From: Parcubacteria group bacterium Gr01-1014_29
GTDB taxonomy: Bacteria > Patescibacteriota > Minisyncoccia > Ryanbacterales > 2-02-FULL-48-12
Direction: 5' to 3'
Length of the DNA stretch: 37,423 bases
Assembly: GCA_007376195.1 (NCBI GenBank)
Contig: VMFT01000006.1
Location: forward strand, 1 to 37,423
How positions within the stretch are numbered: position 1 is the stretch's first letter; every line of letters begins with the position of its first letter. Positions 2,327-30,580 of the stretch are shown here, piece after piece. The position numbers were made by a program, and so were the translations under genes. The notes below the pieces were generated by a model, which was given only the letters and a program-made list of their open reading frames with translations, did not search any database and was not told where the DNA came from.

Positions 2327-3451
2327 ATGGACATCCTATTTCTTATACTATTTTTCTTATCAATTGTCGGTTTGATAGTTGGCTTGATTAAGCCAAGATT
2401 GATTTTGCGGTGGGACAGCGAAAAGCTAACTAAACTTGGATACAGAAAAACAATTGGCATTTTGTTCGGGTTCTTAATAATTCTATTTTTTGTTTTACTT
2501 GGTACAACGGCAGAAACATCAAAGCCGAGAGAGCAAGTACAACAACAAATCACGCCCGATGAGGTTCAACGGAAAATAGAAGAATCAAAAATCATAGAAC
2601 AACAGCAGATTGAGCAAACAAAAGAACCAACTACCGAGGAAAATCCGTTCGTTCAAAAACAGAAAACAAGACCCGTGCCCACCTCTCTAGTGCCAACACC
2701 AACAACAACACTCCAAACGACACCAATTCAACCATCACAAGAAGCAACTTCCAAAGTCGTTTATGTAGTTGATGGCGATACTATTGAAATAGAGAGTAGC
2801 AAAAGAGTTCGGCTAATAGGTATCAATACACCCGAAAGCGGACAGCCATATTTTTCAGAAGCTCGTAACAAACTTATTGAGTTAGTGCTGAATAAAAATG
2901 TGCGATTAGAAAAAGACGTTACTGACACAGACAAATATGGCAGATTATTACGCTACATCTACACAGGTGATTTATTTGTTAATTTAGAGATGGTGCGGTT
3001 AGGTTATGCAAACTCTTATACCTATCCACCTGACGTGAAATATCAAGACCAACTTTTAACTGCCGAAAAAGAAGCGAGAAGTCAGCAATTAGGTTTATGG
3101 AAACCAGCAAAAACTACCGAGTCTACGCAAATTACTCTTATTACAATGCACGCCGACGCCGCAGGCAATGACAACCAAAACCTAAACGATGAATACTTCG
3201 CATTAAAAAATAACAACTCAACAGCGATAGATATGGCTGGGTGGACAGTAAAAGATGCAGGAACGCATATTTTTACCTTTCCCAGTTTTACCCTGAACAG
3301 TGGCACAACTGTAACCATCTATACTGGTAGCGGCAACAACACAAATGACAAGCTATATTGGGGCAATAATGGTGCAGTGTGGAACAACGACGGAGATACA
3401 CTTTATTTGAGAAACACTAATGGAGATTTAGTGTTGGAATATAGTTATTAA
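2327..3451 (+). CDS. membrane-anchored thermonuclease (SNase) with C-terminal lamin-tail domain
   Basis: The 374-residue protein has two hydrophobic segments (about residues 1-23 and 42-62), a Gln/Pro/Thr-rich linker to about 138, a staphylococcal-nuclease-like domain (about 140-260) and a lamin-tail-like beta domain (about 268-374). Nuclease features are DGDT at 149-152, R162 in RVRLIGINTPE, and KYGRLL further on, matching the calcium-binding acids and catalytic Arg/Glu/Arg of the family. The C-terminal part shows the NDEYFALKNNN and MAGWTVKDAG strands typical of LTD domains. It probably degrades nucleic acid at the cell surface, for nutrient nucleotides or DNA uptake; localisation is inferred from the membrane segments. 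It starts 14 bases after the structured element and ends before a terminator. No Shine-Dalgarno is seen. Confidence 0.88.
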   Translation: MDILFLILFFLSIVGLIVGLIKPRLILRWDSEKLTKLGYRKTIGILFGFLIILFFVLLGTTAETSKPREQVQQQITPDEVQRKIEESKIIEQQQIEQTKEPTTEENPFVQKQKTRPVPTSLVPTPTTTLQTTPIQPSQEATSKVVYVVDGDTIEIESSKRVRLIGINTPESGQPYFSEARNKLIELVLNKNVRLEKDVTDTDKYGRLLRYIYTGDLFVNLEMVRLGYANSYTYPPDVKYQDQLLTAEKEARSQQLGLWKPAKTTESTQITLITMHADAAGNDNQNLNDEYFALKNNNSTAIDMAGWTVKDAGTHIFTFPSFTLNSGTTVTIYTGSGNNTNDKLYWGNNGAVWNNDGDTLYLRNTNGDLVLEYSY

Positions 3452-3546: not shown

Positions 3547-3642
3547 ATGAAAATCTACTTTGCCGTTCGTTTTGGCGAACGGAAAGACAGGCGTTATCGT
3601 AAAGAGGATATTTTGAAGTTTATGCAATATGCCAAAAAATAA
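3547..3642 (+). CDS. putative 31-aa leader ORF of the R-M operon
   Basis: An ATG at 3547 opens a 31-codon frame ending in TAA at 3640-3642, overlapping the start of mod by 14 bases in another frame. The peptide begins MKIYFAVRFGERKDRRYRKE and is strongly basic. A perfect 7-bp inverted repeat (CCGTTCG 3563-3569, CGAACGG 3576-3582) sits in its first third and could form a hairpin in the message. An extended -10 box lies 6 bases before the ATG. It may couple translation into mod, which lacks a good ribosome binding site, or encode a small basic accessory protein. Its short length leaves the call uncertain. Confidence 0.4.
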   Translation: MKIYFAVRFGERKDRRYRKEDILKFMQYAKK

Positions 3643-5476
3643 CAATTACAATCACACCGAGCTTATTTGGGATGGTAAGTTTGAGGAGTCAGTAAAACTA
3701 CCTCAAAAAAGAGCTATTGAGAAAATAGTCCTGCCGTTCCAAACGATTGAGGTTATCAATGAACCGAGAGAGGGCACTTTTACCCCAGATACTACTGGCA
3801 GTAAAACTTCTCAACTTTTCGGAGGAGCTAAACGAAAAGATGGATGGATGAATAAATTGATTTGGGGAGACAACAAGTTAGTGATGTCTTCTCTGCTCAA
3901 AGAATACGCTGGGAAAATAAATCTTATCTATATTGACCCGCCCTTTGATGTTGGTGCGGATTTTTCGATTAAAGTTAAAATTGGCGATGAAGAAATCACA
4001 AAAGAACCATCAATGATAGAGGAAAAGGCATATCGGGATACTTGGGGTAAGGGCACAAATAGTTATTTGCAGATGATATATGAGCGATTGCTTCTTATGC
4101 GAGAACTATTAGCCGAGAACGGAAGTATTTATGTGCATTTGGATTGGCATATAGGACATTATGTAAAAGTTATAATGGATGAAGTTTTTGGAAAGGAGAA
4201 CTTTAGGAATGAAATTGTATGGCATTATGACCAAGGAGCAAGACCTAAAACAAGTTTTGGCAAAAAACACGATACTATTTTTTGGTATTCAAAATCAGAG
4301 AGCTATATCTTTAACAGCAAAGATATTTTAGTGCCTTTTGAAAGTGGAATGACAGAGTGGCGTTATACAAAAGGTGGGCAAAAGGGGAAGGAAATGCCAG
4401 AGGGTAAAATACCGTCTGATGTTTGGGATATAAAACTAAACGCAATGGCGTTAGAACATTTGGGATTTTCTACACAAAAACCAGAGGCACTACTTGAACG
4501 CATAATTAACGCTTCTTCAAACGAGAATGATGTTGTGGCGGATTTCTTCTGTGGTTCTGGCACAATAGGAGCAGTAGCGGAAAGGATTGGCAGGCGTTGG
4601 CTTATGAGTGATTTAGGAAGGTTCGCCATTCATACATCTCGCAAACGCTTAATGGAAATCCAAAGAAAACTTAAGGAAGACAGCAAAGATTACTACCCGT
4701 TTGAGATTTTGAATCTCGGCAAGTATGAGCGACAACATTGGCAAGTGGCTTTAAGTGGGAAAGAAACTACGAGCGAAAGTAAGAAAATCTCTCAATACAT
4801 AAAATTTATCATTGAGTTATATCGTGGCGAGACCATAAGTGGTTTCAAACATATTCACGGCAAGAAAGACAATAGATTTATTCATATAGGTGCTGTGGAT
4901 GCTCCCGTTACTATCAACGAGATGAAAGAAGCACTCCAAGAGTGCGAAAAAAATAAATTCAGCCATCTTGATGTTCTTGGCTGGGAATGGGAAATGAGTT
5001 TGTATGAGGAAATGGTTGATTGGGCAAAAAAGAAAGGAGTGCGGCTTAAACTTTACCAAATCCCACGAGAGGTTATGGACAAGCGAGCCGCAGAAGACGG
5101 GGATGTGAAGTTTTTTGAGCTTAATTATCTTGAGGTTAATGTTGAAAAGAAGGGGCAGGAAGTGAAAGTTGCACTCAAAAACTTTGCTATTCCAAGCGAG
5201 GATTTAATACCCAACGACTTAAGAGGGAAAATAGAAAAGTGGTCGGATTACATTGACTATTGGTCTGTGGATTGGGACTACGAGAGCTTAAAGTCCCCCG
5301 AAGGAGAATCAATTTTTCAAAATGATTGGCAAGCGTTCCGCACAAAGAAAAATCAAAAATTGGAGTTAGAAACTCCATCTCATAAATACTCCAAGAAAGG
5401 CAAATACCAGATTTTAGTTAAGGTTATTGATATTTTTGGTAATGACACCTCAAAAGTTGTTGAGGTAAAGATTTAA
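3629..5476 (+). CDS. mod: type III restriction-modification DNA methyltransferase (Mod)
   Basis: The 615-residue protein carries the N6/N4 amino-methyltransferase motifs in beta-class order: catalytic DPPF at 103-106, then AdoMet-binding FCGSGT at 307-312. The sequence before DPPF (LIWGDNKLVMSSLL) and the length (EcoP15I-type Mod is about 650 residues) fit type III Mod. It would methylate adenine in an asymmetric site on one strand and supply target recognition for Res. The region between the two motifs is the likely recognition domain; the C-terminal 200 residues are divergent. It starts inside the 31-residue ORF and is followed 2 bases later by the 57-residue ORF, PIN and Res genes, forming one operon. 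Target sequence cannot be read from the protein. Confidence 0.9.
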   Translation: MPKNNNYNHTELIWDGKFEESVKLPQKRAIEKIVLPFQTIEVINEPREGTFTPDTTGSKTSQLFGGAKRKDGWMNKLIWGDNKLVMSSLLKEYAGKINLIYIDPPFDVGADFSIKVKIGDEEITKEPSMIEEKAYRDTWGKGTNSYLQMIYERLLLMRELLAENGSIYVHLDWHIGHYVKVIMDEVFGKENFRNEIVWHYDQGARPKTSFGKKHDTIFWYSKSESYIFNSKDILVPFESGMTEWRYTKGGQKGKEMPEGKIPSDVWDIKLNAMALEHLGFSTQKPEALLERIINASSNENDVVADFFCGSGTIGAVAERIGRRWLMSDLGRFAIHTSRKRLMEIQRKLKEDSKDYYPFEILNLGKYERQHWQVALSGKETTSESKKISQYIKFIIELYRGETISGFKHIHGKKDNRFIHIGAVDAPVTINEMKEALQECEKNKFSHLDVLGWEWEMSLYEEMVDWAKKKGVRLKLYQIPREVMDKRAAEDGDVKFFELNYLEVNVEKKGQEVKVALKNFAIPSEDLIPNDLRGKIEKWSDYIDYWSVDWDYESLKSPEGESIFQNDWQAFRTKKNQKLELETPSHKYSKKGKYQILVKVIDIFGNDTSKVVEVKI

Positions 5477-5478
5477 TT

Positions 5479-5652
5479 ATGACGAACCAACGCAGACAAA
5501 AAATAGAATTTACTGCCGAGAAAAAGGTCTCCAAGCCTGTTAAGGTTGAATTTTATACGAAAGAAGGCGAGAAAGTTTCTTTTAAGGGACACCAACAGGT
5601 AACAAAACCAGTTAAGGTTGAATTTTATGCCGAAAGAGATAAGAAAAAGTAA
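5479..5652 (+). CDS. 57-aa lysine-rich two-repeat protein of the R-M operon
   Basis: ATG at 5479, two bases after the mod stop, opens a 57-codon frame ending in TAA at 5650-5652. The product is basic and carries an imperfect internal duplication: KPVKVEFYTKEGEKVSFKG followed by KPVKVEFYAERDKKK, each predicted as alternating strands. The DNA encoding the repeat is nearly identical in the two copies (AAGGTTGAATTTTAT), suggesting recent duplication or selection. The 3' end overlaps the PIN gene by 26 bases, so the two are probably translationally coupled. Family not named. Possible roles are an antitoxin-like partner of the PIN nuclease, a nucleic-acid-binding accessory of Mod/Res, or a coupling peptide; the first two are inference. 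Confidence 0.65.
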   Translation: MTNQRRQKIEFTAEKKVSKPVKVEFYTKEGEKVSFKGHQQVTKPVKVEFYAERDKKK

Positions 5653-6235
5653 AGCGTTTTATATTGATACCAATGTTGTGTTGGATTACATTACTGGAAG
5701 AAATACCCAGACGATTTCTGTTCTCGAAAAAATTAAGAGTAAGGATTGGAAATGTGTGAGTTCATCGTTTCTGACGATGGAAGTTGCTGATTACAAAAAG
5801 GACAGTTTGTTTTTTGTTGACAAAGCCATTGATAAAAAATGGGAGATGCGAAAAATCATAAGAGAAACATACAACAAAGACCTTGAACGAGGTGATTTTG
5901 AAAAAGTCTTTAATTGGTTTGCTGAATTTCTGGACAAATATAAATGTCTCTCGCTCTATGACTTTTTAACAACAAACGAAGATTGGTTTTTAGCTCAAAA
6001 CATAGCTTTTAATTCAAACCTTAATGCCCCAGACGTTATACACTTGAGTTCGGCAGTTCTTGGGGCGGTAAGGGGCTATTGCCAAGTTTTTGTAACAAAT
6101 GACAAATTTTTTACGGTAGAAGCAAAGAGAGTCATTGAAAGCAGAAAATTGAAAGGGAAACTGAAAATTATGACCGTAGCCGAAGTTGAGAAAAATTATT
6201 TTAATAAATACAATGTCAAACCCATTTCAAATTAA
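5627..6235 (+). CDS. PIN-domain nuclease embedded in the type III R-M operon
   Basis: The 202-residue protein shows the acidic tetrad of PIN metal-dependent RNases: D14 in FYIDTN, E52 in TMEVADY, D136 in NAPDVIHL and D159 in VTNDKFF, with the TNVVLDYI context of VapC-like proteins. It is longer than typical VapC toxins (about 130 residues) because of a central helical region at about 60-125. The ATG at 5627 is preferred over the in-frame TTG at 5618. It overlaps the 57-residue ORF upstream by 26 bases and res downstream by 23 bases, so it is an integral part of the operon. A PIN enzyme is not a standard type III R-M subunit; it may act as an RNA-cleaving second effector or a toxin. Substrate unknown. 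Confidence 0.85.
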   Translation: MPKEIRKSKAFYIDTNVVLDYITGRNTQTISVLEKIKSKDWKCVSSSFLTMEVADYKKDSLFFVDKAIDKKWEMRKIIRETYNKDLERGDFEKVFNWFAEFLDKYKCLSLYDFLTTNEDWFLAQNIAFNSNLNAPDVIHLSSAVLGAVRGYCQVFVTNDKFFTVEAKRVIESRKLKGKLKIMTVAEVEKNYFNKYNVKPISN

Positions 6236-8750
6236 AGAGAAAGCAGGCAGACGGATTTCTGTCTCACCCATTGTGAACTCTCTCCGAGAGGCGGTTTATG
6301 AGTGGAGAAAAAAAGACTATGATAGTGCTTCGGAAACCACAAAATCATTGCTTCATTTCTGGTTTGAAGAAGAACACAAGGATTTTCAATACTATTTCGC
6401 TCAACGGGAAGCGATTGAAACGCTGATTTATCTTTACGAGGTTGAAGGATTAAGAAACTTTTTTGATATTTGGCGGAAATTTGATACCGCACAGAAAATT
6501 GACCCACGAGCCGCAGAGGAGGTATGCTCTCGGTATGTTTTCAAGATGGCTACTGGTTCTGGAAAAACAAAAGTAATGAGCTTGGCAATCGTCTGGTCTT
6601 ATTTTCACAAGCTCCGTGAGCCAGATTCACCACTTGCCAAAAACTTTGTTCTTATAGCCCCAAACATCATCGTCTTTGAACGACTCAAAGAAGATTTTGC
6701 TGATAACAAGATATTTAATTCAGACCCCTTAATCCCGCCTTCTTGGATAAGCGATTGGAATGTAAAAGTTCTGCTTCAAGAAGAATTTGCCACGGCTAAC
6801 CCAGATGGAAATATCTACCTGACCAATATCCATCGGCTTTACGAGAAGAAAGAAGACGAAGAAGAAAACCCTATTATTGACTTGATTGGCAAAAAGCCGA
6901 GCGGGGCTATTGAAGTATCAAATAAGGGGCTTATCCATCAAATCTTATCTCATAGGGACTTAATGGTTTTGAATGACGAAGCTCATCACATTCACGATGA
7001 GCAGTTGGCTTGGTATCAGACAATTGTTAATCTTCAGAGTCAGATGAAAGAGAACAACAAAGTCGGCGTTGCGGCTCAACTGGATTTTACCGCTACTCCT
7101 AAACGACAGACTGGCAGTATGTTTCCGCAAGTCGTAGTTGATTATTCTTTAGCCGAAGCCATAGAAGATGCAATTGTCAAAAGACCGATTTTACCAGATG
7201 AAAAATCAACTAAAGATTTTAGAGAAACCCCTACCGATAATGCGGCGATGAGATATAAGCCGTGGATAGACCTCGGAGTTTCTCGTTGGCAGAAGTATTA
7301 CTCCCTGCTTTCAAAAACAGGCAAAAAGCCAATTTTATTTGTTATGGCAGACGACACCACTTCGGCAAAGCAGATACAAGAGTATTTGGAAGACCATTTT
7401 AAGGACTTAAAGGGTAAAATTTTAGAGTTACACATCAAAGTTAATAGGAGTGGGGACATTTCCGAAGTAAAAAGTAATCTGGAATATCTTAAACAGTTGC
7501 GTGAAGCCGCACGAAAGATTGATTCAAATGAAAACCCCTACCGAGCGATTGTTTCGGTTTTGATGTTACGTGAGGGATGGGATGTTCGGAATGTTACTGT
7601 CATTGTAGGCTTGCGACCCTATACTGCAGACGCAAACATTTTGCCAGAGCAAACCATTGGTCGTGGTCTGCGTAGAATGGATGCTCGAAATCTTAATTGG
7701 TGTGAGGAGGTTGATATTATCGGCACTCCAGCATTTGAGGAGTTTATCCGTCAGTTAGAAAAGGAACAGGTTGAATTTGAGACAGGTACAATGACCGAGC
7801 CGCCAGCGTATAAAGTCGTCTATATTGAGGAGCGAAAAGTTGACCAGTTTGATATTGCGATACCGATTTTGACACCAGCCATAGTGCGGGAATCCAGAAA
7901 CATCGGCAACCTAACGATTAACAAGTTAGAGAAGAAAATAATCAAGCGTAAGAAGTATAAAGATGATGAGATAAGAAACATTATCTTTATTGACGCTCTT
8001 ACCAAAGAAAAAGTTGATGAACATACTTATAGAATGGAGTATCCTAAAAACCCAGAGAGCGTCATTTCTTTCTACACTAAAATTGTCTTGCAACAAACCA
8101 AAAATACAGGGCAATTTGCTACGCTCTATCCGCTAATGCGAGATTACATACAGGATGTTTTGTTTGATGAGAAAGTTGATTTGGGCGACAAGCAGATTCT
8201 AAAGCAACTTTCCGAGCCAGAGACACAGCAGACCGTCTATGATGTTTTCAGTGATGCCATTAACAAATTAACGCTCGTTGAGCAAAGTGTTGAGAGTGGC
8301 GGCGAATATCTAAAAGTATCGCAGGCAAACGGTTTTGAGTGGTCTGGTGATGTTTATGATGGCGAGAAACAAGTTTTTAATTTAGTTGCTTGCGACAACA
8401 ATTATGAAGTGCGTTTCGCAGATTTTCTGGAGAAATCCGATGATGTTATTGCTTATGCTAAAAACAACCGCTATGTACATTTTCAAGTTGAGTATTTAAG
8501 CTATAAAGGCGGAATGCGATATTACTACCCCGATTTTCTCGTAAAAACAAGAGGCGGGATGTTTGTAGTAGAGACAAAGGGGTTAGAAGATTTAGAAGTA
8601 GCACGAAAAGATGAACGAATGAAGTGGTGGTGCAAAGATGCCTCAAAGCTCACTGGTCAGAACTGGCGATACCTTAAAGTCCTTGAGGATGACTTTAAGA
8701 AATATCAATTTAAGGATTTTGAGAACATTGTTAGCTTTCTTGGGAAGTAG
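6213..8750 (+). CDS. res: type III restriction enzyme Res subunit (SF2 helicase-endonuclease)
   Basis: The 845-residue protein has superfamily 2 helicase motifs: Walker A ATGSGKT at 113-119, DEAH at 255-258 (VLNDEAHH), DFTATP shortly after, and motif VI QTIGRGLRRM near residue 480. The C-terminus carries a PD-(D/E)xK nuclease signature, with D774 (YYPDFLV) and ETK at 787-789. It translocates or switches on DNA using ATP and cleaves near unmodified Mod sites in complex with Mod. All visible motifs are intact, so it is likely active. The ATG at 6213 is preferred over the in-frame TTG at 6186; it overlaps the PIN gene by 23 bases. No ribosome binding site is obvious, consistent with translational coupling. 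Confidence 0.9.
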   Translation: MSNPFQIKEKAGRRISVSPIVNSLREAVYEWRKKDYDSASETTKSLLHFWFEEEHKDFQYYFAQREAIETLIYLYEVEGLRNFFDIWRKFDTAQKIDPRAAEEVCSRYVFKMATGSGKTKVMSLAIVWSYFHKLREPDSPLAKNFVLIAPNIIVFERLKEDFADNKIFNSDPLIPPSWISDWNVKVLLQEEFATANPDGNIYLTNIHRLYEKKEDEEENPIIDLIGKKPSGAIEVSNKGLIHQILSHRDLMVLNDEAHHIHDEQLAWYQTIVNLQSQMKENNKVGVAAQLDFTATPKRQTGSMFPQVVVDYSLAEAIEDAIVKRPILPDEKSTKDFRETPTDNAAMRYKPWIDLGVSRWQKYYSLLSKTGKKPILFVMADDTTSAKQIQEYLEDHFKDLKGKILELHIKVNRSGDISEVKSNLEYLKQLREAARKIDSNENPYRAIVSVLMLREGWDVRNVTVIVGLRPYTADANILPEQTIGRGLRRMDARNLNWCEEVDIIGTPAFEEFIRQLEKEQVEFETGTMTEPPAYKVVYIEERKVDQFDIAIPILTPAIVRESRNIGNLTINKLEKKIIKRKKYKDDEIRNIIFIDALTKEKVDEHTYRMEYPKNPESVISFYTKIVLQQTKNTGQFATLYPLMRDYIQDVLFDEKVDLGDKQILKQLSEPETQQTVYDVFSDAINKLTLVEQSVESGGEYLKVSQANGFEWSGDVYDGEKQVFNLVACDNNYEVRFADFLEKSDDVIAYAKNNRYVHFQVEYLSYKGGMRYYYPDFLVKTRGGMFVVETKGLEDLEVARKDERMKWWCKDASKLTGQNWRYLKVLEDDFKKYQFKDFENIVSFLGK

Positions 8751-8774
8751 TGAGTGGTAGGGTGGGGTAAAAAT

Positions 8775-8783
8775 TGTTATATT
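8775..8783 (+). promoter_or_regulatory. extended -10 element of the 119-aa membrane protein gene
   Basis: TG-T-TATATT ends 6 bases before the ATG at 8790, suggesting a promoter separate from the res operon and a leaderless message. Confidence 0.5.
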
Positions 8784-8789
8784 AGTAAA

Positions 8790-9149
8790 ATGATTTGGTT
8801 TTACCGAGTTTTAATAGTTTTCGGTTCAATGATGTCTTTCTTTTACGGTTTACGAGCCGTTCGTATTTTTGGCTTTCCAGAAAAAAAACAATCTCTACCA
8901 CAATATAATAAAAGCTGGTATATTCATCAATTTTGGTTCAATTTTGTCGGCTCTGCTACTGGTTGGTTTTTACTTCTTTTATTTTTTCTTATCTTAAAAG
9001 ATATAAAATTGGAAAATCTGTCTTTTGCACACATTTCAATTTTTCTAACAGGGATTTTAGGTATTATAGGTCTTTTACCTACAATTTTAGCTGGTGTTGC
9101 TACTTCTTTTGCTAATTTAGTAGGAAAAATTATTGAGAAGCTAAAATAG
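8790..9149 (+). CDS. small integral membrane protein (119 aa)
   Basis: The ATG at 8790 is preferred over the in-frame GTG at 8754 because an extended -10 box sits 6 bases before it and the sequence 8754-8789 overlaps that box. The protein has a hydrophobic N-terminus (about 1-20), a second strong segment with FVGSATGWFLLLLFFLILKD, and a third with ISIFLTGILGIIGLLPTILA, so about three membrane helices. No family was recognised. It lies just after res with its own promoter and converges with the serine recombinase, overlapping it by 20 bases at the 3' ends. A membrane-acting partner in element defence is possible, but the sequence gives no direct evidence. Confidence 0.65.
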   Translation: MIWFYRVLIVFGSMMSFFYGLRAVRIFGFPEKKQSLPQYNKSWYIHQFWFNFVGSATGWFLLLLFFLILKDIKLENLSFAHISIFLTGILGIIGLLPTILAGVATSFANLVGKIIEKLK

Positions 9150-10689
9150 CTGGTCTCAAATCAGGGATGTAAATATACTCATTTTGCCGTTGTATAATGG
9201 TTCTAACATTGTCCACGATGGTCAGCCATTGAGAACGGCTTGCGTAAAACGCGAGCGTATCAAAGGGTTTTACCCAATCAAATACTAGCTTTTTTTCGTC
9301 TAGCCGCAAGTTCTGAAGTGTAAGTTTCAAAAGTAAGCGTTTTTCTTCAGGTTCAGAACTTTCAAACAAATCTGCCGCGTGATTTGCGAGTTTTAGTAAG
9401 TAATCAGCAGTCATATAATACTCTTCATCAGCTTGGCCAAGTCGGTCAATCTTGGCTTTGATTTCTGCTTGTTTTGCGCGGTACTCTTCTCGCTTTTGGT
9501 TATAGAAGCTCTCAGTAATACTCCCATCTAATTTGTCCTCGTACATCTTTTCAATGCGATCCTCATATTTCTGGTACTCATTCGCGTAATTTTCCAGCAT
9601 AGACTTGTGGAATTTTGATTTTGCTTCGTGAGATTCTTTTAAGGTAGTAACAATGTCATCTGCTATTTCTTGCGGTATCTGTAGGCTTGTATAAGCTCGC
9701 TTGAATTGATGCGTGAGTTCCTCTTCGCGGAGCCATGCCGCACTGTGTTTGCCTTTATATTGTGTACAGTGATAAAAAACATATTTTCCTTTCTTTTTCT
9801 CGGGAGTAATCATACAGCTGCATGTTTGCTCAAAGCAACGTATCAGTCCGCGGTAGAGAAAGGGAAGTCCCGCGAATTTGAAGTGCTTTTTCTTGTAACT
9901 TGCTTTTACATGTTGGACGGCATCAAATTTTTCTTTTGAGATGAGCTGTTCATAGAAATGGGGAGTTGGAGGATAATTGTTATACAGCATAATCCCGTAA
10001 TAAAACTGGTTTTTGAGAATACGGTCTATGTTACCTTTTGAAAGATGAATGCCGAATGTTTCTTTAACCTTATGGATGATTTCCAGCATTGAGTAGGCGC
10101 CTGTTGCATACCATTCATACATCATTTGAACTGCTTTTGATTTTATCTCGTCGGGTTCAACCCATTTCTTTTTAGTACCTTCCCGTACGGTGTTGCGGTA
10201 TCCATAGGGCGCAGGTGCTGGCCACTCGTTGTTTCGCAGCTTTGATTGTGCCGAGAACACAGCATCTTCTTTTAGGCAGTTGAGATATTGTTTTGCAAGG
10301 AACACCTTTGTATCCCAATCCTGTATATCGCGGCCTACTGTATTTTTGGTAATGACGAGTCTATCATGCACAAAGTGAATTTCTTTGTCATATTCCAGCC
10401 GTAATTCGTCAATCAGCACGGCGTCACGGTAATTTCTGGTCATGCGGTCTACGCGGTAGGCAATGATGATTTTAATGTCCTTGTTTTGTTTAACGTACTG
10501 AATCATCTCATCAAACTTTTTGCGTATTTTATTGTCAGCGCTTTCACTGAAAACAAATTCCGTATCTATGGGGTACTCCTTATTTTTTGCGTAGTCACGT
10601 AGTTCTGGTAGTTGAATATCCTTAAGGGATAAACCCTCTTTTTCTTGCTTTGCGGTAGAAACGCGAGCTAGGATAACGGCCTTGTTCAT
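9130..10689 (-). CDS. large serine recombinase (site-specific integrase)
   Basis: The 519-residue protein begins with a resolvase catalytic domain (about 1-140) with nucleophile S11 in ILARVSTAKQ and the IIAYRVDRMTRN segment typical of the family. A recombinase domain follows (about 160-260, with PAPAPYGYRN and a helix-turn-helix-like LSKGNIDRILKNQFYYG), then a zinc ribbon with Cys pairs in RCFEQTCSC and HC, then a long charged coiled coil (about 340-420). Such enzymes integrate and excise phages and integrative elements at short att sites. It is the probable mover of the AT-rich region to its left. Its ATG shares one base with the TAA of the Bro-like gene (TAATG), so translation is coupled. 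All catalytic-domain landmarks appear intact. Confidence 0.93.
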   Translation of the reverse strand: MNKAVILARVSTAKQEKEGLSLKDIQLPELRDYAKNKEYPIDTEFVFSESADNKIRKKFDEMIQYVKQNKDIKIIIAYRVDRMTRNYRDAVLIDELRLEYDKEIHFVHDRLVITKNTVGRDIQDWDTKVFLAKQYLNCLKEDAVFSAQSKLRNNEWPAPAPYGYRNTVREGTKKKWVEPDEIKSKAVQMMYEWYATGAYSMLEIIHKVKETFGIHLSKGNIDRILKNQFYYGIMLYNNYPPTPHFYEQLISKEKFDAVQHVKASYKKKHFKFAGLPFLYRGLIRCFEQTCSCMITPEKKKGKYVFYHCTQYKGKHSAAWLREEELTHQFKRAYTSLQIPQEIADDIVTTLKESHEAKSKFHKSMLENYANEYQKYEDRIEKMYEDKLDGSITESFYNQKREEYRAKQAEIKAKIDRLGQADEEYYMTADYLLKLANHAADLFESSEPEEKRLLLKLTLQNLRLDEKKLVFDWVKPFDTLAFYASRSQWLTIVDNVRTIIQRQNEYIYIPDLRPAILASQ

Positions 10690-11327
10690 TATCCGTTGGA
10701 TAGTTTTTTATGTCCCTTATTTGGTGGAAGAAAATTCTCTGGGCTTACAATTTTCTTGCCCGTCTGTTCTTCAAGTTCATGCCTTGCATTACGCGCTATG
10801 CGGCCGCCTTTTTGTGCAGGTGGTTTATTACTTTCAAATCCTTTAGCATTTTCAGTCTTGGCAATCTGGGTCGTGGAAAGTTCTGCTAATGCGGTAAAGA
10901 TTAACTCGGCTTCTGTCATGTTATCCCTCAAATTTTGATTTTTAAGGTTCTTGAAGTGTTTATGCTGTTTTGTGCTCAAACCACTCCATTCTTGGTGGAT
11001 AATATCAGTAAGAATTGCATACTCGTTGCGTTCCGTTACGCCACTGTCTTTCCAGTGATCTGTGAGCTTGTTGCGCGTTTCTTGACCCAGCATGCGCTGT
11101 TGTATCCATTTCTCGGACATACCATGTTGCTTCCAATGCCCACGTGCGCGGTTTACCGCTAATTCAGGGTCTGTCATCTCTTGTACGCGCTCGTAGCCAA
11201 CTTTTGCAAGCCAGAGCTTGAATGGCTCAGCTTTGGGGGATGGGATGCTTTGGATTATACGGAACATGGTTTCTGTACTGGCAACGTCCGTTTGCCTCAT
11301 TTTCCCATCCGCAGCCCTCATTTTCAA
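10689..11327 (-). pseudogene. Bro/DinD-like antirepressor, N-terminal Bro-N half missing
   Basis: The 212-residue frame matches the central and C-terminal parts of Bro/DinD-type phage antirepressors as I remember them: LKMRAADGKMRQTDVA, IIQSIPSPKAEPFKLWLAKV, NEYAILTDII, an NLRDNMTEAELIF segment and a QTGKKIVSPENFL tail. Full-length relatives have about 60-80 more residues forming a Bro-N domain. Here the frame stays open upstream only to a TGA at 11364-11366, still family-like (NETVTNCNTL), and none of the upstream frames shows Bro-N features. Start would be the TTG at 11327 or the ATG at 11321. The 3' end is intact and coupled to the recombinase by TAATG. It may be a relic, a functional shortened form, or a gene split by integration. 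Confidence 0.75.
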
Positions 11328-28885: not shown

Positions 28886-29899
28886 ATGAAAGAGGCAATA
28901 CATAAACAAAGAGCGCCACGCAATCGCACCATAACTTTAAGTGATGCTGATATGTTGCGTCTCAAAAAGAATCTGATTCAACTGGATAAACCAGTGTCTT
29001 TGAACGAAATTGAAAACAAGACAATACATCAGGATATTTTTGAAGCATTAGAATATTTGCCGGACAAGTTTGTTGATCTTGTTTTCGTTGACCCTCCATA
29101 CAATCTGAACAAAACATTCAATCTGACTTCGTTTAAGTCAATGGAGTCCGAAAAATACGAGGAATGGCTTGATTCTTGGGTTCAAAAAATTATTCGTTTA
29201 TTGAAACCAAACGCCTCGGTTTATATTTGTGGTGATTGGAAATCGTCCGGAGCAATTTTTAATGTTGCAAAAAAGTATTTTCAAATTCAAAATCGTATTA
29301 CTTTTGAGCGAGAAAAAGGACGTGGCGCAAAATCAAATTGGAAAAATTGCTCCGAAGATATTTGGTTCTGTACTTTATCGGACGATTATCATTTTAATGT
29401 TGAAGCGGTAAAAATGAAGCGCAAAGTTATTGCGCCTTACAAGGACGAGAATGGAAAGCCGAAGGATTGGGAAGATACTGGCGACGGAAAATATAGAGTT
29501 ACTTATCCGTCGAATATTTGGACCGACATTACAATTCCATTTTGGTCTATGCCTGAAAATACAGACCACCCGACGCAAAAACCGGAAAAACTTGTAGCAA
29601 AAATAATCTTGGCAAGTTCAAAGCCAAATGATGTTGTTTTTGATCCGTTTTTGGGTTCGGGGACAACTTCCGTTGTGGCACAAAAATTAGGGCGTAGATA
29701 TGTTGGTATAGATATTGACGAGTTATATTGTTGTTTGGCAGAAAAGCGTTTAGAAAACGCGCGACAAAACAAAACAGTACAAGGGTATTTAGATAGCGTT
29801 TTTTGGGAAAGAAACACATTAAACGAGCAGACAAACGGAAATGGAAAGAAGCAGAAAGTTGAGCTATCGGAAAATCTATTTAGCAAAATTCTAGTATGA
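28886..29899 (+). CDS. type II beta-class DNA amino-methyltransferase
   Basis: The 337-residue protein has catalytic DPPY at 69-72 followed by AdoMet-binding FLGSGTT at 255-261, the beta-class order seen in M.RsrI-like enzymes. HPTQKPEKL, which is common just before the AdoMet motif, is also present. It would methylate adenine N6 or cytosine N4 in a short, probably palindromic site and protect DNA against the adjoining endonuclease. The stop overlaps the endonuclease start (ATGA, 4 bases). The two-gene block is more AT-rich than the flanking E1 and purD regions, which suggests recent transfer. The region between the two motifs is the likely recognition domain; the target is unknown. Confidence 0.88.
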   Translation: MKEAIHKQRAPRNRTITLSDADMLRLKKNLIQLDKPVSLNEIENKTIHQDIFEALEYLPDKFVDLVFVDPPYNLNKTFNLTSFKSMESEKYEEWLDSWVQKIIRLLKPNASVYICGDWKSSGAIFNVAKKYFQIQNRITFEREKGRGAKSNWKNCSEDIWFCTLSDDYHFNVEAVKMKRKVIAPYKDENGKPKDWEDTGDGKYRVTYPSNIWTDITIPFWSMPENTDHPTQKPEKLVAKIILASSKPNDVVFDPFLGSGTTSVVAQKLGRRYVGIDIDELYCCLAEKRLENARQNKTVQGYLDSVFWERNTLNEQTNGNGKKQKVELSENLFSKILV

Positions 29900-30561
29900 A
29901 AAAGAGCAAAATTTTTTATGGAAATTCACATAGAGAAGGAATAGAGCGAAGGCTCAAAAAGTTTTTGAATGAGCAAACAGATTTTCTTTCCGCACGGACA
30001 ATAAACAGCCCGCGTGCCGTTGGCGACGCAATTGAGAATATCATCGCTGAAAAATTCAAAACTATTCTCGGGGACATAGTTGGTGAATACTCGTCATCTT
30101 TTGCGCGGCGAGCTATGGCAGATTTGGCTTTCACAGACAAAGATGGATTTTATTATATTGTTGATGTAAAAACGCACCGACTTGATACAAAATTCAATAT
30201 GCCAAACCTGACATCTGTCGAAAGATTATCGCGTTTCTACAAGGAAGACGTAAATTATTTTACGCTTTTGAAAATTGATTACAAAATAAATGGCACGCGG
30301 GCAGAAATAGCTAAAGTAACTTTTGCCCCGATTGAATTTTTTGATTGGGATTGTCTAACTATCGGTGCGCTTGGCTGGGGTCAAATCCAAATCGCGAACG
30401 CGAATGTTGTAAAAATAGTCCCAAAGAACAGCCGAAAAAAATGGATGTTGAAGTTGTGCGATACAATGCTTGAATTTTATCCAAAAGAAATAGGGAAAAT
30501 TGGCGAGCGCATTGATCGCTTTAAGAAAATCAGAAAAGTTTGGGAAAAGAAGAGTGAATAA
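29896..30561 (+). CDS. type II restriction endonuclease (PD-(D/E)xK fold)
   Basis: The 221-residue protein lies immediately after the methyltransferase and has MADLAFTDKDGFYYIVDVKT, giving D76, then D90-V-K92, the pattern of a PD-(D/E)xK nuclease core; E47 in the preceding helix is the usual fourth residue. It would cut unmodified copies of the methyltransferase's site. A 4-base overlap with the methyltransferase ensures coupled translation. I could not name the specificity family. The assignment rests on the nuclease core and on context; no other enzyme class fits better. Confidence 0.75.
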   Translation: MKKSKIFYGNSHREGIERRLKKFLNEQTDFLSARTINSPRAVGDAIENIIAEKFKTILGDIVGEYSSSFARRAMADLAFTDKDGFYYIVDVKTHRLDTKFNMPNLTSVERLSRFYKEDVNYFTLLKIDYKINGTRAEIAKVTFAPIEFFDWDCLTIGALGWGQIQIANANVVKIVPKNSRKKWMLKLCDTMLEFYPKEIGKIGERIDRFKKIRKVWEKKSE

Positions 30562-30580
30562 AAATTATCGATGCGATAAA

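Follow-up and report, generated by a model that had tools for sequence, protein, structure and literature searches.

A small repeat protein and a probable PIN nuclease docked behind restriction-modification genes in Patescibacteria

Some restriction-modification (RM) loci of types I and III harbour toxin-like RNases, among them PrrC, which is held by its RM complex (available parts of PMC3506569 and PMC3710099), and a survey of HEPN proteins extended the toxin-like RNases of RM loci to at least 16 HEPN clades (PMC3710099, same part). A coupling between restriction and suicide by RNases has been proposed since 2012, and the puzzle stated in the accessible text of that proposal is that immune loci come without dedicated antitoxins (PMC3506569). 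For BREX, PIN endoRNases are listed among the backup effectors that occur less commonly (PMC12839542).

Studying a window of 37,423 nucleotides from a member of the Patescibacteria with a genome of 1.08 Mb reveals a type III RM operon in which two further genes, coding for a basic protein of 57 aa and for a PIN-like nuclease, lie between mod and res. The locus resembles PrrC/PrrI, a type Ic RM operon that includes the anticodon nuclease PrrC: here too the gene of a predicted RNase is enclosed by RM genes, and a second-line role is proposed for both. While PrrC combines HEPN and ABC-ATPase in a single gene of a type I system and is inhibited by the RM complex, the pair described here consists of a PIN-like protein and a dedicated small partner and is docked to several RM types; unlike PrrC, the locus yields no HEPN or ABC-ATPase match in Pfam, NCBIfam or PADLOC. 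VapBC modules share with the pair a small upstream gene overlapping the PIN gene, four conserved acidic residues and co-inheritance, the small gene being here a candidate antitoxin. However, the 57-aa protein lacks a known antitoxin DNA-binding domain, its family mostly precedes RusA genes and the pair is linked to RM genes.

Surveys of type I and III RM loci also describe one toxin-like gene being repeatedly swapped for another, and AIPR proteins in type III loci, but they report immune loci to be without dedicated antitoxins, and neither this PIN pair nor its exact docking is among the cases described in their available parts (PMC3506569, PMC3710099). In BREX, too, a methylation-based defence is assisted by a PIN RNase, which has the role of an auxiliary effector, although the core system there is a different one and a partner like the 57-aa protein is not described in the accessible portion of that source (PMC12839542). 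In the literature searched, which left most subscription journals outside its scope, we found no previous description of the 57-aa/PIN pair or of a mod-res slot in Patescibacteria.

The restriction genes and the two genes between them

Mod, the DNA methyltransferase of the type III system (615 aa, 3629..5476, plus strand), matches the PADLOC profile MTase_III (4.6e-137) over residues 8-612 and Pfam N6_N4_Mtase (3.8e-45). The restriction subunit Res (845 aa, plus strand, ATG at 6213 and stop at 8750) matches Pfam ResIII (5.4e-19) and RE_endonuc (3.5e-5); the profile of the BPTD_3080-family REases gives 5.5e-93 with Res, yet this is under its curated cut-off. Mod has the N6 MTase motifs I and IV, Res an SF2 helicase and a PD-(D/E)xK nuclease, and the motifs DPPF and CGSG (both in Mod), GSGKT, DEAH, TATP, GRGLRR and PDF...ETK are all intact. 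By their sequences Mod and Res are therefore a real and complete type III pair, as the initial annotation had assigned them, and exactly two genes, the 57-aa ORF and the PIN-like ORF, separate them.

The first of these genes (5479..5652, plus strand) begins after a gap of 2 bp behind the mod stop codon, without overlap. Its product was proposed to be a lysine-rich protein of two repeats, which is borne out by 12 identities at an offset of 24 residues, against at most five at every other offset tested, by 13 lysines and by a pI of 9.9. It belongs to a family of nine sequences in Patescibacteria with the motif FYTKxGE.V. No match above chance was found for it in Pfam, NCBIfam or PADLOC, where DNA-binding domains of the VapBC type (AbrB, RHH, HTH, Phd) were likewise not found, nor was the family found among phages or viral contigs. 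The AF2 model (pLDDT 58, pTM 0.28) is mostly without secondary structure, holds only a short hairpin and was set aside.

The second gene (5627..6235, plus strand; ATG at 5627, stop at 6235) codes for a basic protein of 202 aa (pI 9.1). The acidic residues D14, E52, D136 and D159 occur in the order typical of PIN domains and are invariant in the three homologues. Pfam PIN gives E-values of 0.048 for the window protein and 0.012 for its homologue in locus L086, both below the cut-off, and a sequence search of the PDB with the PIN profile gave no match. The AF2 model is of low confidence (pLDDT 57.7, pTM 0.57); compared with PDB structures, VapC PIN domains have the highest probability among the matches listed (up to 0.84), and compared with viral structures the top two matches are PIN proteins (probability 0.80), all of these matches having E-values of 0.1 or more. 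Of the intact PIN nuclease claimed at the outset the acidic residues stand; that the ORF codes for a PIN nuclease is probable, as suggested by this tetrad together with HMM scores under the threshold and a model of low confidence. Searching phages, plasmids and viral contigs gave no usable relative, a single match on a Streptomyces plasmid (E 0.1) being disregarded, and fragments at E 0.003-0.009, which were all that a single-sequence search of 380 genomes of the phylum returned, were dismissed as chance.

Judged from substitution ratios (NG86), the 57-aa gene and the PIN gene are under purifying selection and are real, maintained genes. When the window is compared with L086, the 57-aa gene has a dN/dS of about 0.05 and the PIN gene one of about 0.16, values that are rough because dS is near saturation; between the PIN genes of L086 and L087 it is about 0.014. 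One could regard the pair as neutral debris or as chance genes caught between mod and res, and the overlap of 23 bp between PIN and res, which has the appearance of a scar, would suit such an origin. These ratios, the invariant acidic residues and the presence of the same pair in three lineages speak against it, and we have rejected this explanation as very improbable, the selection signal largely refuting it.

Relatives of the pair and their restriction-modification neighbours

Scanning genome contigs with the 57-aa family identified two close relatives, L086 from Ca. Zambryskibacteria and L087 from Ca. Taylorbacteria, whose 57-aa proteins are 84-86% identical to that of the window. In both loci a PIN homologue follows (65-66% identical), with the same overlap of 26 bp. 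Neither pair lies in a type III system. In L086 it is found 16 bp after a fused HSDR_N/N6_Mtase/Methylase_S enzyme (type I/IIG-like), in L087 2 bp after the end of a REase, a homologue of the HincII-like REase that the window harbours elsewhere (29896-30561). A profile search added L106 (genome G707), where a remnant lies 4 bp after an Eco57I-like MTase, which itself follows an AccI-like REase (type II); here the 57-aa gene is reduced to its first ten codons, which are fused to the last 24 of the PIN gene, so that by its sequence this is a pair collapsed by internal deletion. In all four contexts that show the 57-aa gene and the PIN gene or remnants of both, an RM gene lies upstream at a spacing of 2-16 bp.

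A fifth copy (L088) is truncated at the contig end with the PIN gene outside the view, and follows a probable tyrosine recombinase identified by eye. In addition, genome G620 holds a PIN fragment of 37 residues on a 3.3-kb contig without RM genes nearby. The decay in G707, and perhaps in G620, indicates that the module is dispensable, and it is rare in the genomes surveyed. Weak matches of the 57-aa protein in L070-L078 were left aside; of these L071/L082 was checked and lacks a matching ORF.

Because the relatives lie behind differing RM enzymes, the pair is better described, as far as gene order and homology go, as a portable module docking behind the RM genes of at least four different systems than as a component of type III systems. 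A wiring specific to type III RM, as claimed at the outset, is not supported.

The limits of the module are sharp. By DNA homology (blastn against L086 and L087, and an alignment of the junctions) the portable unit comprises 5478..6210 on the plus strand, from 1 bp before the 57-aa ATG to the would-be ancestral stop of the PIN gene. Homology sets in 1 bp 5' of the 57-aa start between L086 and L087 (93%) and between the window and L086 (74%), and within a few bp 5' of it when the window is compared with L087 or L088, while the DNA upstream of this onset differs in every pairing. On the 3' side homology ends in the window at 6210, where the window has TAC and the other copies have the PIN stop TAG. 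Joining the flanks without the pair, as an exercise on paper, brings TTTAATT directly before CAATG, which is similar to most cargo-less relatives, where mod and res are 1 to 5 bp apart or overlap by a few bp.

The annotated overlaps of 26 and 23 bases were confirmed, at 5627-5652 between the 57-aa gene and PIN and at 6213-6235 between PIN and res, but their meaning differs. The former is conserved; the change from TAG to TAC, the end of homology at 6210 and the restored mod-res spacing let the latter be read as an insertion scar, and at the sequence level it looks like one rather than like evolved coupling. That all four genes form one translational unit, as had been deduced from the overlaps, is still plausible, although 2 bp separate mod from the 57-aa gene, with no overlap, and the PIN/res overlap is scar-like. 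Promoter-like sites inside the operon are fewer than in shuffled sequences, a count that speaks neither for nor against internal promoters.

Besides occupied sites an empty one can be seen. The second RM system of the window (28886..30561, plus strand) consists, according to Pfam, of an N6/N4 MTase and the HincII-like REase; positions 30273-30565 are 76% identical to positions 1-293 of L087 (blastn) and homology stops at the REase stop codon. No remnant of the pair was found downstream of this system, and HincII-like RM thus occurs both with the pair (L087) and without it (window).

Such a distribution could also reflect a selfish addiction cassette of the TA-like kind, for which the 3' ends of RM operons are simply safe and expressed places to land in defence islands; it would stabilise itself and its neighbourhood and take no part in restriction. 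The occurrence behind four unrelated RM types, the free decay seen in the L106 deletion remnant, the second RM system of the window without the pair and the VapBC-like gene order with the small partner before the PIN gene are all in its favour. However, in each of the four contexts the pair docks within 2-16 bp of an RM stop codon, closer than mere hitchhiking in an island would require, and the 57-aa protein is without a DNA-binding antitoxin domain; on balance we regard such a cassette as rather unlikely.

A stretch of about 110-150 bp 3' of the PIN gene is also conserved (L086:7734-7847, L087:1025-1138, L106 from 7104). It holds an antisense reading frame ending in ...EWFETPKPKSNKGKNELTYTIS before its stop codon and is likely the end of a convergent gene travelling with the pair.

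A possible second-line role of the pair

The best explanation in our opinion, with about an even chance of being right as a whole, treats the 57-aa gene and its PIN neighbour as a portable nuclease module of two genes, which docks directly after RM genes, here precisely between mod and res, and would serve as a second-line effector. The module would be co-expressed with the RM genes by transcriptional read-through and by short-distance or overlapping translation. By analogy with VapC, the PIN protein may cleave RNA (tRNA, rRNA or mRNA). In a healthy host this presumably toxic activity would be kept in check; once the RM system, or the cell itself, can no longer cope, the PIN protein would be released and cause dormancy or abortive infection. 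The 57-aa protein would be its obligate partner, either as an inhibitor or as a nucleic-acid-binding cofactor.

The second-line role is supported by the identical overlap of 26 bp, the RM gene upstream in every one of the four contexts, the sharp boundaries, the states with and without the pair, the purifying selection and the precedents of PrrC and BREX. Points against it are the sub-threshold support for the PIN domain, the basic nature of the 57-aa protein, shared by the PIN protein, the lack of a known DNA-binding antitoxin domain in the 57-aa protein, its distant relatives paired with RusA, which is a DNA nuclease, the rarity and the decay. The initial annotation had suggested either a second effector or a toxin-antitoxin-like unit; a pair that is co-inherited, selected and tied to RM genes fits both, and the antitoxin part is only a candidate. 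A small partner gene which travels with a nuclease among RM types, with precise boundaries and with occupied and empty states, makes the idea of coupling directly testable.

Distant relatives of the 57-aa protein (33-43% identical, with FYTK.GE.V invariant) directly precede genes of the RusA type instead of PIN genes in six other Patescibacteria loci (L089:6430-7116, L090:6995-7597, L091:3850-4469, L092:1980-2653, L093:565-1247 and L081:5108-5424). The hosts are Andersen-, Doudna-, Kerfeld-, Zambryski- and Jorgensenbacteria and genome G120, in which only a truncated RusA-like start is left (L081). Pfam RusA gives 2e-11 to 4e-8 in the three genes tested. RM genes clearly adjoin only one of these six loci, L092, which comes after a type ISP enzyme gene (specificity region). 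This pairing of a small protein with RusA in Patescibacteria is an undescribed one.

Because of these relatives, and because both the 57-aa protein and the PIN protein are basic, a role as nucleic-acid-binding partner is as open as that of an antitoxin. Carried further, the 57-aa protein could be an adaptor for nucleases, PIN here and RusA elsewhere, and the PIN protein would attack phage nucleic acid exposed by restriction, for example by trimming DNA ends or degrading transcripts, with no TA logic involved. The RusA loci, the strongly basic nature of the 57-aa protein and the neighbourhood of the ISP gene fit this explanation; a binding mode common to the PIN and RusA folds, which are unrelated, is left unexplained by it, and we consider it improbable.

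Combining the second-line reading with the RusA loci, we suggest, with more doubt than confidence, that two-repeat proteins of 50-60 aa, a family so far undescribed, are a common partner of unrelated nucleases (PIN, RusA), and that together with PIN they form a self-contained plug-in which moves between RM operons and docks at the stop codon of the RM gene before it. Restriction systems would in this way acquire and shed a dedicated second effector under the control of its partner, and the mod-res gap of type III systems in Patescibacteria would be an evolved exchange slot.

The mod-res gap in related loci

For comparison we used 29 Patescibacteria loci, 28 relatives and the window, in which mod and the downstream res are both visible. 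In 18 of them the gap contains between one and three additional genes, always on the same strand, and in eleven it contains none, numbers which give no rate for type III systems overall, the loci having been picked by Mod similarity within one phylum. Cargo gaps were examined in L039-L065 and L100; the proteins include AIPR, an AAA_21/SMC-like ATPase, DUF3800 (twice), a Clp-like protease, Schlafen AlbA_2 (twice), Bro-N, KTSC with NYN and Trypsin_2, and several have no Pfam match.

Mods that are 70-78% identical are accompanied by differing cargo: a protein without Pfam match in L045, AIPR in L046, DUF3800 in L047 and nothing in L099 and L101. The same holds for L047 (DUF3800) versus L063 (none) and for L048 (AlbA_2) versus L050 (Bro-N). 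This indicates that the cargo turns over faster than Mod, and in terms of gene content the mod-res gap of these related type III systems is a swap slot with a gene set that varies in most genomes. It offers a compact place for mining new defence effectors in ultrasmall and poorly studied bacteria. The 57-aa/PIN pair is absent from all 28 relative loci; its recurrence in other type III mod-res loci, which the initial annotation had proposed to look for, was not found, its link to RM being broader than type III. For type III systems specifically, the outcome that the annotation had named as refuting has thus come about, while the tie to RM genes in general is stronger than it had supposed. Two close plasmid relatives of mod outside the Patescibacteria are without cargo.

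In L044 (658-831, minus strand) a PIN_12 gene begins 4 bp inside the end of mod and is broken by a stop codon and a frame change, res lying past the contig end.

Several further genes can be seen around the operon; no tRNA was found in the window. The gene just 5' of mod (2327-3451) codes for a predicted nuclease that combines an SNase domain with a Lamin Tail Domain. Directly 3' of res a small hydrophobic ORF without family match (8754-9149), probably a membrane protein, may belong to the RM operon as one more accessory gene. Downstream of the operon and in opposite orientation, a large serine recombinase (Resolvase/Recombinase/zinc ribbon) and a partial Bro-N ORF (9130-11327) suggest a mobile island.
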